A stretch of 53,241 bases of DNA from a virus: positions 1 to 53,241 of the IMG/VR virus record IMGVR_UViG_3300046804_001071, one strand, 5' to 3'. Shown here piece after piece: positions 46,417 to 51,747 of the stretch. Made by a program: the position numbers and the translations under genes. How positions within the stretch are numbered: position 1 is the stretch's first letter; every line of letters starts with the position of its first letter. The notes under the pieces were generated by a model. That model saw nothing but the letters and a program-made list of their open reading frames with translations, was not told the DNA's origin and did no database searches.

Positions 46417-46638
46417 ATGGTTACTGTTTACACCAACCCGAGCTGCGTTCAGTGCGACATGACAAAGAAATTTTTAGACAAGAATGAGATCAACTACAAG
46501 GTTGTAGACCTTTCTCAGGATCAGGAGTCTCTAGACATGGTCCTAGGTCTTGGCTTTTCGGCTGCTCCTGTAGTTATCGCTGGTGACGACAAGTGGGCTG
46601 GGTTCAAACTAGATCGTCTACAGACTCTGGTCGTATAG
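46417..46638 (+). CDS. nrdH: NrdH glutaredoxin-like electron donor
   Basis: A 73-residue protein from ATG 46417; a longer frame starting at 46279 would run through the leader hairpin. It starts MVTVYTNPSCVQCDMTKKFL with the CVQC redox pair (Cys10, Cys13) and contains NYKVVDLSQD, FSAAPVVIAG and KWAGFKLDRL, the normal NrdH fold and C-terminal motif. It reduces class Ib ribonucleotide reductase through thioredoxin reductase. First gene of the nrdH-nrdI-nrdF group. Confidence 0.88.
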   Translation: MVTVYTNPSCVQCDMTKKFLDKNEINYKVVDLSQDQESLDMVLGLGFSAAPVVIAGDDKWAGFKLDRLQTLVV

Positions 46639-46643
46639 CTATT

Positions 46644-47048
46644 ATGTTAGAGATTGTCTATTTCTCTAACTACTCTGGTAATACTAAAAAATTTGTTGAA
46701 AAGCTTCCGTTTAAGTCTCATCGTATTCCGATTAGAGATACTGGAGAGCCTTTAGTAGTTACTAAGAAATACGTACTTTTTGTTCCTACCTACGGAGGAG
46801 GGGCGGAAGGTAAATCGGTGCCTAGACAGGTAGTTGACTTTCTGAACGATCCAGAAAATAGATCTTTTGCAGTTGGCGTGATCGGGCTGGGCAATACTAA
46901 CTTTGGTGAACACTACTGTCGAGCTGCAAAAGTGATTTCTGAAAAATTAAAAGTACCACTGCTGGCAAAAGTTGAAATTTTTGGAACTCCCGATGATGTA
47001 CTAAATGTCACTGAAATACTTAATAAAAAAGAAAAGGAATGCGAATAA
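46644..47048 (+). CDS. nrdI: NrdI flavodoxin-like protein
   Basis: A 134-residue protein starting MLEIVYFSNYSGNTKKFVEK, with the FMN phosphate loop SNYSGNT, the VPTYGGG turn and GLGNTNFGEHYCRAAKVIS. This is the NrdI pattern; NrdI supplies the oxidant that builds the dimanganese-tyrosyl cofactor in NrdF. It lies five bases after nrdH and directly before nrdF. ATG 46644 is chosen because it gives the family start. Confidence 0.85.
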   Translation: MLEIVYFSNYSGNTKKFVEKLPFKSHRIPIRDTGEPLVVTKKYVLFVPTYGGGAEGKSVPRQVVDFLNDPENRSFAVGVIGLGNTNFGEHYCRAAKVISEKLKVPLLAKVEIFGTPDDVLNVTEILNKKEKECE

Positions 47049-48002
<954 letters not shown>

Positions 48003-48010
48003 TCTATGAG

Positions 48011-48016
48011 TAGAAT
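48011..48016 (+). promoter_or_regulatory. Candidate -10 box for a leaderless mRNA
   Basis: TAGAAT-ATAACT-ATG, almost the same string as before the tail terminator gene (TAGAAT-ATACCT-ATG). It overlaps the region just after the nrdF stop. Confidence 0.45.
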
Positions 48017-48022
48017 ATAACT

Positions 48023-48211
48023 ATGCCTACTTACGAATATAAATGCTCTAACGGACATGTCTACTCCGAAGTTCGCAGTATTTCTGCAGAAGATACAGTA
48101 TCGACTTGCAAAGAAGAAGACTGTGGACTAGAGTTGAAACGAGTGTTCAACCCACCTCCGATTAAGTTCAATGGAACTGGGTATAGCACTGGCAACAACA
48201 CCTGGAGATAG
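48023..48211 (+). CDS. FmdB-type zinc-ribbon protein
   Basis: A 62-residue protein starting MPTYEYKCSNGHVYSEVRSI with a second pair spread over STCKEEDCG. This is the FmdB/CxxC_CxxC regulatory-like ribbon, in which the first pair is usually CxxC and here is KCSNGH (Cys plus His). Its function is unknown. The C-terminal KFNGTGYSTGNN is also typical of the family. Confidence 0.75.
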   Translation: MPTYEYKCSNGHVYSEVRSISAEDTVSTCKEEDCGLELKRVFNPPPIKFNGTGYSTGNNTWR

Positions 48212-48223
48212 AAAGAACTAAAC

Positions 48224-48553
48224 ATGGAATTCCTTCCAATAGACGCAGAGTATCCAAAGTTTATTGAGGGAGAGGATCCTCCTTGTGCGGAGACAGATCC
48301 AAATATGTTCTTTCCAGAGGACGGTAGTGAAACGTTCTCCCTTAATCCGAACAATAGCGAAGAGTATATCTCTGTAGTTCGTGCAACTTACTACAATCTC
48401 GAAGGGGCAAAAGCTATTTGTAATAGCTGTCCATTCATCAAAGAGTGCCTAGAATACGCTCTAACTGACCAGTATTTAGTTGGAATCTGGGGTGGAACTA
48501 CGGACCAGCAGCGTCGAGCAATCCGCAAAAAACGAAAAATCGCTAACAAATAA
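48224..48553 (+). CDS. whiB: WhiB-family Fe-S transcriptional regulator
   Basis: A 109-residue protein, the second WhiB in this window. Cluster cysteines are Cys21, Cys66, Cys69 and Cys75 (AICNSCPFIKECLEYAL), with GIWGGTT after them and a basic tail RRAIRKKRK. The 44 residues between the first and second cysteine are longer than usual. It should bind sigma-A and alter host or phage promoter choice. It lies between the nrd and the membrane protein genes. Confidence 0.88.
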   Translation: MEFLPIDAEYPKFIEGEDPPCAETDPNMFFPEDGSETFSLNPNNSEEYISVVRATYYNLEGAKAICNSCPFIKECLEYALTDQYLVGIWGGTTDQQRRAIRKKRKIANK

Positions 48554-48621
48554 GTGCGGTAAAATTGAAGTAGCTCTTGGGAGAGAGGGTCATTAAATCT
48601 ACTAGTCTCCCGGGAGAAAAA

Positions 48622-48906
48622 ATGGAAATTGTAAAAATGATCCTAAAGCGTACAGTCGCTTTGGTCATCCTTAAAGTCAGCGGTGTTCTAGCCGCAGGTT
48701 CCATCGGTGGCGTTGAGTTGTGGCAGTCTGCCCTAATCGCTGCTTTTGTTGGAATCATGGAAGTTGCTGAGTCTCTAGCACGTGCCTACGTTGTGGACGG
48801 TGTTCTAGACCAGGAAGAAATCAACATTGCCTTTGCTAGCTCGGCTGAAGCCGCACTTGCAGACAGCAAGAAGAAGGCAGCCCCTTCAGAAGATTCAAAC
48901 TTCTAA
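48622..48906 (+). CDS. Holin-like small membrane protein
   Basis: A 94-residue protein from ATG 48622 behind CGGGAG. Two hydrophobic helices (VALVILKVSGVLAAGS and WQSALIAAFVGIMEVAESLA), then a charged tail with GVLDQEEINIAF and a lysine/acid end. It resembles small actinophage proteins annotated as holins or membrane proteins. A holin would form the lysis pore. No endolysin is visible nearby. A terminator-like hairpin follows. Confidence 0.6.
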   Translation: MEIVKMILKRTVALVILKVSGVLAAGSIGGVELWQSALIAAFVGIMEVAESLARAYVVDGVLDQEEINIAFASSAEAALADSKKKAAPSEDSNF

Positions 48907-48919
48907 TATTCACCTCTGA

Positions 48920-48949
48920 CAAATCCCTCAAAGAAATTTGGGGGATTTG
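48920..48949 (+). terminator. Hairpin terminator after the holin-like gene
   Basis: CAAATCCCTC (48920-48929) pairs with GGGGGATTTG (48940-48949), ten pairs with one T-G. It is followed by TTGCATT; U-tract short. It ends the nrd-whiB-membrane protein transcript. Confidence 0.6.
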
Positions 48950-48985
48950 TTGCATTCTGAACTTATGTTTGATAGTCTTGTGACG

Positions 48986-49014
48986 TTGCAATCCCGCAGC
49001 AAATAAACATACAT
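48986..49014 (+). promoter_or_regulatory. Candidate promoter of the 49109 operon
   Basis: TTGCAA (48986-48991), 17 bases and ATACAT (49009-49014). It lies between a terminator and a long leader stem, so transcripts starting here would carry that stem in their 5' UTR. Confidence 0.4.
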
Positions 49015-49040
49015 TACGTCGTATGGGGTTAGAAATAACC

Positions 49041-49092
49041 TAGTCTGGCCAAAGCTGTCTGTTCAGGAACTTCAGGCAGCTAGGCTAGACGA
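49041..49092 (+). promoter_or_regulatory. Long leader stem-loop before the 49109 gene
   Basis: GTCTGGCC (49043-49050) pairs with GGCTAGAC (49083-49090), and AGCTGTCTG (49053-49061) pairs with CAGGCAGCT (49073-49081). Together they give about 17 pairs (two wobble pairs) with a small internal loop and an 11-base end loop. It ends about seven bases before the GTAGGAG ribosome site of the next gene. It may act as a cis-regulatory RNA element or mRNA stabiliser. Confidence 0.55.
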
Positions 49093-49108
49093 AACAGTAG
49101 GAGACAAA

Positions 49109-49351
49109 GTGGATTTTGAAGAATGGCTTCGCGTAGGTATTGAAAATGGCTGGGCTGGTCCTGCTGTTTGTTATACGCATGATGGTCTACCAACTAGTGA
49201 GGAGGAGGACCACGCATTTGAAGAGTCTGATCCTTGCATTCACATTATTCGTCTTTATGAAGATGAAGAGCACAAAAAGGATGTAGAATCTAACCATGCC
49301 CCTAGCGTTTGGCGTGCAACCAATCGTGGTATTGAAATTGAGGAGAAGTAA
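49109..49351 (+). CDS. Small acidic actinophage protein
   Basis: An 80-residue protein from a GTG start behind GTAGGAG. It contains DFEEWLRVGIENGWAGPAVC, YTHDGLPTSEEED, ESDPCIHIIRLYED and VWRATNRGIE, a pattern I have seen in hypothetical proteins of many actinophages. Function unknown. The stop overlaps the next start (TAATG). Confidence 0.65.
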   Translation: MDFEEWLRVGIENGWAGPAVCYTHDGLPTSEEEDHAFEESDPCIHIIRLYEDEEHKKDVESNHAPSVWRATNRGIEIEEK

Positions 49352-49482
49352 TGGCAAAAGGTAAAGGCGGAGGCGCAAAGCCAGCTGCAAAGGAAGTTTC
49401 TGACCGTAAGAACGGTAAGGCTTCAAAAAAGCGTCCAAAGGTTTTTGACGCAGTGAAGCGTCGATTGGTTACTCGCGACTAG
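49351..49482 (+). CDS. Small very basic protein
   Basis: A 43-residue protein, about one third lysine and arginine (MAKGKGGGAKPAAKEVSDRK start, then KKRPKVFDAVKRRLVTRD). It is coupled at both ends: TAATG with the gene before and TAGTG with the gene after. It could bind nucleic acid. No family recognised. Confidence 0.5.
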   Translation: MAKGKGGGAKPAAKEVSDRKNGKASKKRPKVFDAVKRRLVTRD

Positions 49483-50228
49483 TGGGAATCAAATTAGTAG
49501 CTTTTGATTTGGATGGGACTCTTGCACCTAGCAAGGGTCCTATTTCAAATGACATGGGAAAAGCCCTTAGAGATTTACTAGGGGTTGCTCAGGTCTGTAT
49601 TATCAGTGGTGGTACAAGAGAGCAGATTATGTCTCAGGTTGTGGACTTGCTTCCTGATAAGTCAAACCTTCGTAATCTACACATTATGCCTACCAGCGGT
49701 GCTCAGTATTTGAAGCGTCATCTTGGAGGATGGCGAGTTGTCTATTCCGAGAAGCTGTCAGAGGAAGAGATCGAACGCATTACTCAGAACATTCATGTAA
49801 CTGCTGCGTTACTAGGCGAGTGGCCGGAAAATCCTCACGGGGCAGTTATTGAAAACCGAGGGACTCAGGTAACATTCTCTGCTTTAGGTCAGAATGCTCC
49901 GATTGAAGAGAAAGAGCTCTGGGATCCTACTGGAGTTAGAAAAGATCGATTCCGTCGAACCCTGGCATCACTGCTTCTGGAGTTCGATGTTCGCTCTGGC
50001 GGGTCGACTAGTATCGACATTACAAAGGTTGGGATTGACAAGGGATTCGGAATTGATGAACTTATCAAGCGTACTGGACTTAAGCCAGATGACGTCCTGT
50101 TTGTGGGAGATCGACTAGACGAGGGTGGCAATGATCATTCGGTTATGCGAACTGGTGCAAACTGCTATCCAGTAGACGGACCGCTAGATACATTGCAACT
50201 TATAAAAGATTTGTTAAAAGCTACATAA
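49482..50228 (+). CDS. HAD-superfamily phosphatase, phosphomannomutase-like
   Basis: A 248-residue protein from a GTG start coupled to the gene before. HAD motif I is VAFDLDGTLAPSKG (nucleophile Asp10, Asp12), motif II is IISGGTREQI, and motif IV is VLFVGDRLDEGGND. A cap domain with AVIENRGTQVTFSALGQNA and LWDPTGVRKDRFRRTL resembles the type IIB cap of eukaryotic-type phosphomannomutases and sugar phosphatases. It would act on a hexose phosphate, possibly to make mannose-1-phosphate for the sugar genes; that is inference. Confidence 0.7.
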   Translation: MGIKLVAFDLDGTLAPSKGPISNDMGKALRDLLGVAQVCIISGGTREQIMSQVVDLLPDKSNLRNLHIMPTSGAQYLKRHLGGWRVVYSEKLSEEEIERITQNIHVTAALLGEWPENPHGAVIENRGTQVTFSALGQNAPIEEKELWDPTGVRKDRFRRTLASLLLEFDVRSGGSTSIDITKVGIDKGFGIDELIKRTGLKPDDVLFVGDRLDEGGNDHSVMRTGANCYPVDGPLDTLQLIKDLLKAT

Positions 50229-50268: not shown

Positions 50269-50602
50269 GGGGATGACTGGTTTCGACAGTTATTCTGAAG
50301 TTGGTGAAGCAAGCCGAGATAGCGGAGTCTCGTAAAACCGCTAAACAAAATAAATGCTGAATCTCGTTCTGCATTCGCTCTAGCTGCCTAACAGTAGTTT
50401 AGACGCCCCTGGCAAAGCACTAGTCTTAGGTGGGCAGCCAGGTTTTAAATAAGTAGGACAACCTGCAGTACGTCTATGCTGGAGACGTAAAACTGAAGCA
50501 CCACAGGATGTGGTAGTTCGGTCCTGGAAATATAAACTGCCTAAGCTTGTAGAAGAACAATGGATCCGTAACTGGACCGGGGTTCGATTCCCCGCATCTC
50601 CA
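50269..50602 (+). ncRNA. ssrA: Transfer-messenger RNA (tmRNA)
   Basis: The 5' end GGGGATGACTGGTTTCGACA pairs with the 3' end: GGGGATG (50269-50275) against CATCTCC (50595-50601), seven pairs with one G-U. The T-arm GGGGTTCGATTCCCC lies at 50579-50593. The tag begins at GCT 50356 and reads AESRSAFALAA, ending at TAA 50389-50391; it has the ALAA degradation end. CCA is not encoded (CACGG follows the acceptor stem). It rescues stalled ribosomes by trans-translation, probably with host SmpB. The gene follows the HAD gene by 40 bases; only a weak AATAGT -10 is seen. Confidence 0.93.
50356..50391 (+). other. tmRNA tag reading frame
   Basis: GCT GAA TCT CGT TCT GCA TTC GCT CTA GCT GCC TAA gives the tag AESRSAFALAA. 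The AAATAA just upstream of the resume codon matches actinobacterial tmRNAs. The LAA end would direct ClpXP-type proteolysis. Confidence 0.85.
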
Positions 50603-50943
50603 CGGAAAAGCTTGACACGACGGGAGAGGTCGTGTTAGGCTAATCTACTGGCCTAGACATGCAGCAGACGCATGGCCCATAGCAACCCTAGTAATACCAA
50701 TGGACAGCGAAGACCAACACCCTCTTAGAGGACGTAAGTTAGTACCTGAGACGTGAGCTAGGCTCTGCATCGGATTCGAGAGTCGCGCCTCGATCTGGGT
50801 CTTATTATGAGAAAGAAATAGTGAGCCGCTGACTCCACCAACTGATCAGGGTGAAGCCGGGCGACTTTATATATGTACCAGACCGTTAGGCGGTCGAACG
50901 GGTAATGGCTGTCCGGACGGACAGCTCGATGCCCGGGGCAAAC
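50603..50943 (+). ncRNA. Hairpin-dense gene-free region; candidate structured RNA
   Basis: About 340 bases with no convincing gene, between the tmRNA and a strong terminator. Local perfect hairpins: ACACGAC/GTCGTGT (50615-50635), TAGGC/GCCTA (50636-50655), CATGC/GCATG (50658-50674), CCTC/GAGG (50721-50731), GACCG/CGGTC (50881-50895) and GCTGTCC/GGACAGC (50908-50925). The first three follow one another almost without gaps. It is probably co-transcribed with the tmRNA. It does not match RNase P, SRP or 6S RNA signatures that I know. It could belong to a large phage RNA class found near tRNA or tmRNA genes (GOLLD or ROOL type), but it is shorter. Confidence 0.45.
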
Positions 50944-50969
50944 ACCCGTCACTTCGGTGGCGGGTTTTT
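50944..50969 (+). terminator. Strong Rho-independent terminator
   Basis: ACCCGTCAC (50944-50952) and GTGGCGGGT (50957-50965), nine pairs with one wobble, a TTCG tetraloop and a run of five T. It is the strongest terminator in the window and ends the tmRNA/structured-RNA transcript. Confidence 0.9.
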
Positions 50970-51003
50970 GTTTGTACAAACTTAGGATTAAGAATGTACA
51001 AAG
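50970..51003 (+). promoter_or_regulatory. TTTGTACAAA-type sites before the recombinase gene
   Basis: A perfect 12-base palindrome GTTTGTACAAAC (50970-50981) and a related ATGTACAAAG (50994-51003). Their TGTACA centres are 22 bases apart, two helix turns. They lie ~75 and ~55 bases before the recombinase start. They may be recombinase subsites or an autoregulatory operator. Confidence 0.45.
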
Positions 51004-51054
51004 CGTGGTACCATATAAACAGGAAAAGCGTAACTTTATACAAGAAGAGAAGTG

Positions 51055-51747
51055 ATGGACGCCCTTAACCCTGGTAAAGCCCTACTATATGCCCGAGTAT
51101 CCACTCAGCTGCAGGTAAACGACGGAGTTTCGTTGGATGTTCAGGAGCGAACCCTAATCACCGCCGCCGAGTTCCACGGGTTCAAGGATTTCGAAGTTAT
51201 CCGCGAGGAAGGCCGATCTGGTAAAAGTATCAAGGGTCGACCAGTATTAACAGACGCCCTTACTAGATTAGAGTCCGGCGAAGCAAACGCCCTTATTGTT
51301 ACCCGAATCGACCGACTTGCTAGGTCGACCACTGACTTCTTGGACATTGTGGACCGAGCAAGCAAAAAAGGCTGGCGTTTGATCATGCTGGACCTAAATC
51401 TGGACACTTCGACCTATCAAGGACGCTTTGTGGTCACAGTAATGAGTGCTTTGGCCGAAATGGAGCGCGGAATCATAGCCGCGAGACAGAAAGACGTCCA
51501 CAAGGACCGTAGAGACCGTGGCATAGTTTGGGGGGTAGATATGGGGCCGAAAAACCGCACTTTACCCGAAATCAAGGAAAGAATCGTGGCTGAGAGGGCT
51601 GCTGGAAAGAGTTTTGGCAAGATAGCCGACGGATTAAATGCAGATGGTATACCTACACAAAACAACAGAAAGTGGTATGCTTCGACTGTGAAGAACATAG
51701 TAGACGCCCTTATTGAAGGAGAAGCTGATGGCAAGACGGAAATCTAA
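51055..51747 (+). CDS. Small serine recombinase (resolvase/invertase type)
   Basis: I favour ATG 51055; GTG 51052 is in frame. The ~230-residue protein has a full catalytic domain: LLYARVSTQLQVNDGVSLDV with the nucleophile Ser, EEGRSGKSIKGRP, ALIVTRIDRLARSTTDFL with the active-site arginines, and a VMSALAEMERGIIAARQ E-helix. After a short linker there is one HTH-like part (AAGKSFGKIADGLNADGIPT, then WYASTVKNIVDAL). It is far shorter than large serine integrases (>400) and is close to resolvases and invertases. It may resolve genome multimers, invert a segment or integrate. The end overlaps the next gene. Confidence 0.85.
   Translation: MDALNPGKALLYARVSTQLQVNDGVSLDVQERTLITAAEFHGFKDFEVIREEGRSGKSIKGRPVLTDALTRLESGEANALIVTRIDRLARSTTDFLDIVDRASKKGWRLIMLDLNLDTSTYQGRFVVTVMSALAEMERGIIAARQKDVHKDRRDRGIVWGVDMGPKNRTLPEIKERIVAERAAGKSFGKIADGLNADGIPTQNNRKWYASTVKNIVDALIEGEADGKTEI

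Follow-up and report, generated by a model that had tools for sequence, protein, structure and literature searches.

A candidate small-RNA gene with covarying stems in the gene-free gap behind a phage tmRNA

In the virus record analyzed here (53,241 bases, hereafter the window), a gene-free gap separates the tmRNA gene from an intrinsic terminator, which raises the question of what this gap encodes. The tmRNA (50269-50603, plus strand), whose tag reads AESRSAFALAA, was identified by ARAGORN and matched Rfam RF00023 with 145 bits, while the 9-bp terminator (50944-50970, plus strand) is also present in the related locus L003. Upstream of the tmRNA (46593-50228) lie genes for a flavodoxin, the small subunit of ribonucleotide reductase, a WhiB-like regulator and two proteins resembling a nuclease and a hydrolase, and the WhiB-like regulator gene suggests an actinobacterial host. 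An earlier note on this DNA had described the gap as a hairpin-dense RNA region without a gene, starting at 50603, and had proposed a new structured RNA that might be processed from the tmRNA transcript. We consider it probable that the gap is instead an independent phage small-RNA gene and not a tmRNA trailer, giving rise to a promoter-to-terminator RNA that may act in trans.

The coding content of the gap was evaluated first, and no credible protein gene occurs in 50604-50943, in agreement with the earlier description. Open reading frames of at least 30 aa comprised the frame reading through from the tmRNA and three frames on the minus strand (41, 73 and 58 aa); none of these three matched a PHROG, and the 73-aa frame returned no match to phages by tblastn. 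Moreover, the indels among the aligned relatives have lengths that are not multiples of three, so that no conserved protein frame, which the earlier note had itself raised as an objection to an RNA, was found. The gap is made of several distinct parts and not of one uniform RNA, namely, in order, a promoter-like sequence, a domain of 152 nt that we called module A (50650-50801, plus strand), a linker, a second structured domain of 62 nt called module B (50877-50938, plus strand) and the terminator.

Folding calculations showed that the gap is more stably folded than its shuffles (z -3.1 to -3.6), thus bearing out its hairpin density, whereas the count of at least six perfect hairpins was reduced to five distinct ones with stems of at least 5 bp (50615-50635, 50658-50674, 50776-50793, 50881-50895 and 50908-50925). 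The scripted count was 7 with nested variants included, a value reached by 7 of 500 shuffles (1.9 +/- 1.6). When the pieces were compared individually with shuffles, the z values were -6.8 for 50604-50648, -3.9 for module B (50879-50942) and -0.1 for both the linker and module A (50649-50805, 157 bases). Hairpin density and stability are thus mostly due to the palindrome of the promoter, to module B and to the terminator. Module A on its own is no more stable than shuffles and yet is the conserved part of the gap, hairpin density being a poor guide to the conserved RNA part.

Relatives of module A were searched for in about 270 loci gathered via the downstream serine recombinase, the tmRNA-tag pattern, a neighbouring gene and motif patterns, a collection that contains some duplicates and chance matches. 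Module A was found in L001-L004, in L005 (whose contig is identical over 457 bases) and, strongly diverged, in L019, L021, L023 and L031, and each of these copies lies directly behind a related tmRNA. Including the window, the 12 records amount to five distinct sequences, all from one phage lineage, which fall into three groups, i.e., the window, the L003 type and the L021/L023/L031 type. The model R1, when used to search related loci totalling about 1.2 Mb, recovered the known groups only, with the best other matches at E 1.9-7.5, and a pattern scan for TTGACA behind the tmRNA 3' end gave no further recognisable member. Actinomycetia phage DSL-LC01, a lake-water phage that is the nearest isolate by its recombinase (64% identity), contains neither the tmRNA nor module A.

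The structure of module A was then predicted by RNAalifold on a MAFFT alignment. The program found, unaided, the three stems P1, P2 and P3, with two-sided changes in 13 of 32 pairs. P1 is the closing stem, formed by GGCCUAGA (50650-50657) and UCUGGGUC (50794-50801); hairpin P2 (50658-50674; CAUGC, a 7-nt loop and GCAUG) follows directly inside its 5' strand, and hairpin P3 (50776-50793; UCGAG, a loop with UCGCG and CUCGA) abuts its 3' strand. All three stems show covariation and, like the two segments given next, lie on the plus strand. The conserved segment CCCAUAGCAACC (50676-50687) varies at one base among the five sequences and GCAUCGGA (50767-50774) is invariant in them, while the middle of the module (50688-50766) returned no supported structure in the alignment. 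Pairing of the P3 loop (UCGCG) with an interior GCGA into a pseudoknot was considered and rejected, being possible in the window and L003 and inconsistent in the L021 type. In the alignment A4, 11 of the 19 pairs of P1-P3 showed two-sided changes, and 95.8% of the cells were paired, compared with 74.6% for shuffled alignments and 25-41% when the partners were slid. The covariation score was 0.737, against 0.306 in shuffles (0 of 500 reaching it) and at most 0.163 with slid partners; these values rest on five sequences of one lineage, and the shuffle control ignores their relatedness. The strands of P1 change from GGCCUAGA/UCUGGGUC in the window to GGCCUGGA/UUCAGGUC in L003 and to AACUGCUA/UAGUA-GUU, with one bulged base, in L021. 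Those of P3 read UCGAG/CUCGA, UUGAG/CUCAA, UCUGAG/CUCGGA and UUCAAG/CUUGGA, with UCGCG unchanged between them. The G-U pairs in P1 and P3 indicate that the RNA corresponds to the plus strand.

The first 45 bases of the gap contain the promoter-like sequence, and the RNA gene seems to start near 50648 and not at 50603 as previously proposed. The hexamer TTGACA (50612-50617, plus strand), a probable -35 element, is invariant in all copies of module A and lies 30-32 nt before P1. The probable -10 element, TAGGCT (50636-50641, plus strand), is weak in the window, where it shares 3 of 6 bases with the consensus, so that the promoter fell below the limit of the consensus scan and was not listed; the corresponding hexamer is TAGATT in L003 and TAATGT in L021. 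A TANNNT hexamer occurs 6-8 nt before P1 in every copy, a spacing that counts as independent evidence for the three main groups only. Bacterial -10 elements lie about 7 nt upstream of the transcription start, so that the transcript would begin with P1 or within a few nucleotides of it, and an RNA with a 5' end of its own is therefore most likely. As far as a small-RNA gene is recognised by its own promoter and terminator, the locus carries conserved candidate signals for these, the -10 being weak in the window.

Processing from a tmRNA precursor offers a different account of the same region, in which the gap would be a trailer or spacer co-transcribed with the tmRNA and cut off at maturation. 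Since the first terminator met after the tmRNA is the one at 50944, read-through into module A is possible and the tmRNA transcript probably runs through the gap; in addition, the W-type module A is always directly behind a tmRNA. However, the near-constant distance of TTGACA and TANNNT from P1 in every copy argues against a mere trailer, the covariation and the conserved unpaired segments go beyond the requirements of a spacer, and many related tmRNAs are followed by other contents. We therefore regard a trailer as unlikely, and processing from the tmRNA transcript, as put forward in the earlier note, is not the best reading of the locus.

The strongest of the hairpins, the palindrome CACGAC-GGGAGAG-GTCGTG (50616-50634), sits between the probable -35 and -10 elements and is therefore probably a DNA-level, operator-like site; it has the same sequence in the window and L003 and is missing from the L021 type. 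This palindrome, together with the widespread palindromic site resembling GTATAAACTTAGGATTAAGTTTATAC found at 50974-50999 before the serine recombinase, might suggest that operator and recombination sites explain all the palindromes with no functional RNA involved. Nevertheless, the recombinase-type site is located past the terminator, and DNA sites would not account for the stems of module A, in which pairing is kept by two-sided changes and by G-U pairs. These compensatory changes argue against a purely DNA-level role, which we judge very improbable.

The sequences following module A were also compared. In the window, the terminator is followed by a recombinase gene, in L003 module A is followed by a tRNA-Asn, and in L021 a terminator, placed about 60 nt after P1, is followed by a PHROG 1338 gene. 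A degenerate tRNA-Asn at the corresponding place in the window was sought by eye and none was found. Beyond the window terminator, the small serine recombinase gene occupies 51052-51747 and the palindromic site just before it reads GTACAAACTTAGGATTAAGAATGTAC; this site, of which 36 other distinct copies occur in related loci, is a candidate recombination site. A sub-threshold match to the FTHFS RNA (50945-51047; 30.4 bits versus a gathering score of 72.6) spans the terminator and the recombinase site and is probably due to chance.

A compact domain with conserved unpaired segments preceding a terminator could also be a cis-regulator, i.e., a riboswitch-like or attenuator leader acting via the terminator on the gene behind. 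The PHROG 1338 gene of the L021 type, which starts about 20 nt past the terminator, and the occurrence in the same loci of manA, a cis-regulatory candidate by its Rfam type, would fit such a role. On the other hand, the three groups have no constant class of downstream gene, and this variability argues against cis-regulation. Inspection by eye gave no indication that the terminator arm could pair alternatively. It did reveal promoter-like hexamers separating the terminator from the gene in L021, as well as a promoter-like pair immediately upstream of the PHROG 1338 gene in L191. A cis-regulatory leader is thus, in our estimate, as improbable as a trailer.

Module B was found elsewhere only in L133, where it follows the same kind of tmRNA and a different upstream sequence and again precedes a terminator. 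Comparing its apical stem in the window and L133 by eye, two compensatory pairs and one mismatch were observed. The window RNA is therefore probably a composite of module A and an exchangeable 3' domain.

On the whole, comparison of the available copies shows homology, three stems with covariation and a conserved promoter-to-P1 spacing, with no conserved reading frame. According to the small-RNA gene that we favour, transcription would most likely proceed from about 50648, off the TTGACA/TANNNT promoter, to the terminator at 50944, with a predicted transcript (50648-50970, plus strand, starting about 7 nt after the -10 element) of about 320 nt. Within module A, the 5' end would be locked into P1, with hairpins P2 and P3 and the conserved unpaired segments presented alongside, while module B would provide the second, exchangeable 3' domain. 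Through the palindrome between the -35 and -10 elements, the timing of expression in the window and in L003 may be under the control of a repressor. Because the RNA travels with tmRNA, tRNAs and other structured RNAs, we tentatively suggest, from its neighbours alone and with low confidence, that it might act in trans during infection, via its conserved loops, on a host protein or RNA of translation or RNA processing.

Two further groups of loci might contain distant relatives of module A. L143, L124 and L128 have UAGCAACC in common, together with a P1 and a P2 matching those of module A, and the L143 type scored 8.7 bits against R1 (E 0.037 in a search of 661 bases), falling outside the matches at E <= 10 of the 1.2-Mb search. 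Sequence similarity thus suggests a distant relative, to be taken as a lead and not as an established member. In L143 about 300 bases, containing other modules, separate the element from the tmRNA; if this relative is real, adjacency to the tmRNA, with which the RNA might work according to the earlier note, would not be obligatory. The element is near-identical in L124, L128 and L143 amid differing neighbouring modules, a pattern suggestive of cassette exchange. The L130 type (L130, L131 and L137) resembles module A in architecture and in position and synteny, with an nhmmer E of 7.2, and was not recovered by R1 (0.4 bits); it is a possible distant relative and a lead only. A larger covariation count including L130 and L143 was set aside as partly circular, their helices having been picked by eye for pairing.

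The contents differ behind the 34 tmRNA loci listed, near-duplicates included, where tRNA-Asn, tRNA-like elements ending in CCAC, manA RNA (RF01745) and several recurring gene-free modules were found. The manA RNA scored above its gathering threshold in L006 (1476-1656), L013 (1180-1362), L143 (1645-1822) and L147 (8533-8710, minus strand); in its 2010 description, this RNA was reported from marine metagenomes, cyanophages and gamma-Proteobacteria (PMC2864571). Other gene-free modules occur within 1.5 kb behind the tmRNA in L006, L008, L012, L018, L122, L126, L140, L143, L146 and L147. Recurring examples are AAAGGTC...GACCTTT (about 70 nt), TTTGAGCGTGACTGCTCA... (about 210 nt) and GGCTCTTTACTGCTGAGT..., in combinations that vary by phage. 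In L124, L126, L133, L143, L146 and L147, elements not called by ARAGORN were recognised by eye behind the tmRNA as tRNA-like, with an acceptor-like stem of 7 bp that terminates in CCAC and a hairpin similar to a T-arm, whose loop reads, for example, TGCAAAT, TGCGATT or TTCGATT. A broader and more doubtful proposal, which we advance with less conviction than the small-RNA gene itself, is that the tmRNA anchors a combinatorial island in which unrelated structured RNA cassettes, in part equipped with promoters of their own, are exchanged among genomes like defence and counter-defence gene cassettes. Module A and its variants, module B, manA RNA, tRNA-like minihelices and others would be such cassettes, module A belonging to an RNA toolkit directed at host translation or RNA processing.

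Module A thus represents a candidate family of RNAs whose stems covary and which is absent from Rfam, and the position of its 5' end can be stated as a concrete hypothesis. The locus also draws attention to a tmRNA-anchored position where related phages gather different structured RNAs, which protein-centred annotation misses; if these RNAs act in trans, the phages would carry an RNA toolkit at a translation-rescue locus.

Finally, the locus was compared with known RNAs. Among 4227 Rfam 15 families, GOLLD, ROOL, manA and wcaG included, the tmRNA alone passed the gathering score. At E <= 10 nothing matched module A, and weak chance-level matches touched module B and the terminator. Given its homologues and covarying pairs, the proposal of a new structured RNA is supported. 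DNA similarity searches against GenBank phages returned as sole match a tmRNA piece in Streptomyces phage Mildred21, and the L021 RNA matched none of these phages. Scans of one genome from each of 84,980 prokaryote species gave no match to either the module A motif or the tmRNA tag context. A literature search of partial coverage retrieved no description of this RNA, and an earlier description is possible. Module A is a family new to Rfam, while phage RNAs near tRNA islands are already known as a kind. GOLLD and ROOL are structured RNAs of phages and prophages, often located near tRNA islands, that assemble into a multimeric RNA cage (PMC12286853), and manA and wcaG RNAs occur in cyanophages (PMC2864571). 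A tRNA or tRNA-like identity was rejected, as ARAGORN and Rfam returned the tmRNA only, the P3 loop has 8 nt and no CCA-type end follows P1. The tmRNA and permuted tmRNA (RF00023, RF04321) are directly adjacent and of related size, but 50606-50943 matched neither beyond edge overlaps, and no tag frame or tRNA-like domain was recognised. The window RNA is reminiscent of GOLLD and ROOL in its phage record, its place behind a tmRNA and the tRNA-Asn that follows in L003, a setting insufficient for membership; it differs in its length of about 150-320 nt (many GOLLD members exceed 800 nt), its stems and its position behind a tmRNA. The manA RNA is likewise structured and takes the same position downstream of the tmRNA in relatives of the window phage; however, the window has no manA match, and the P1-P2-P3 arrangement with its conserved segments is module A's own.
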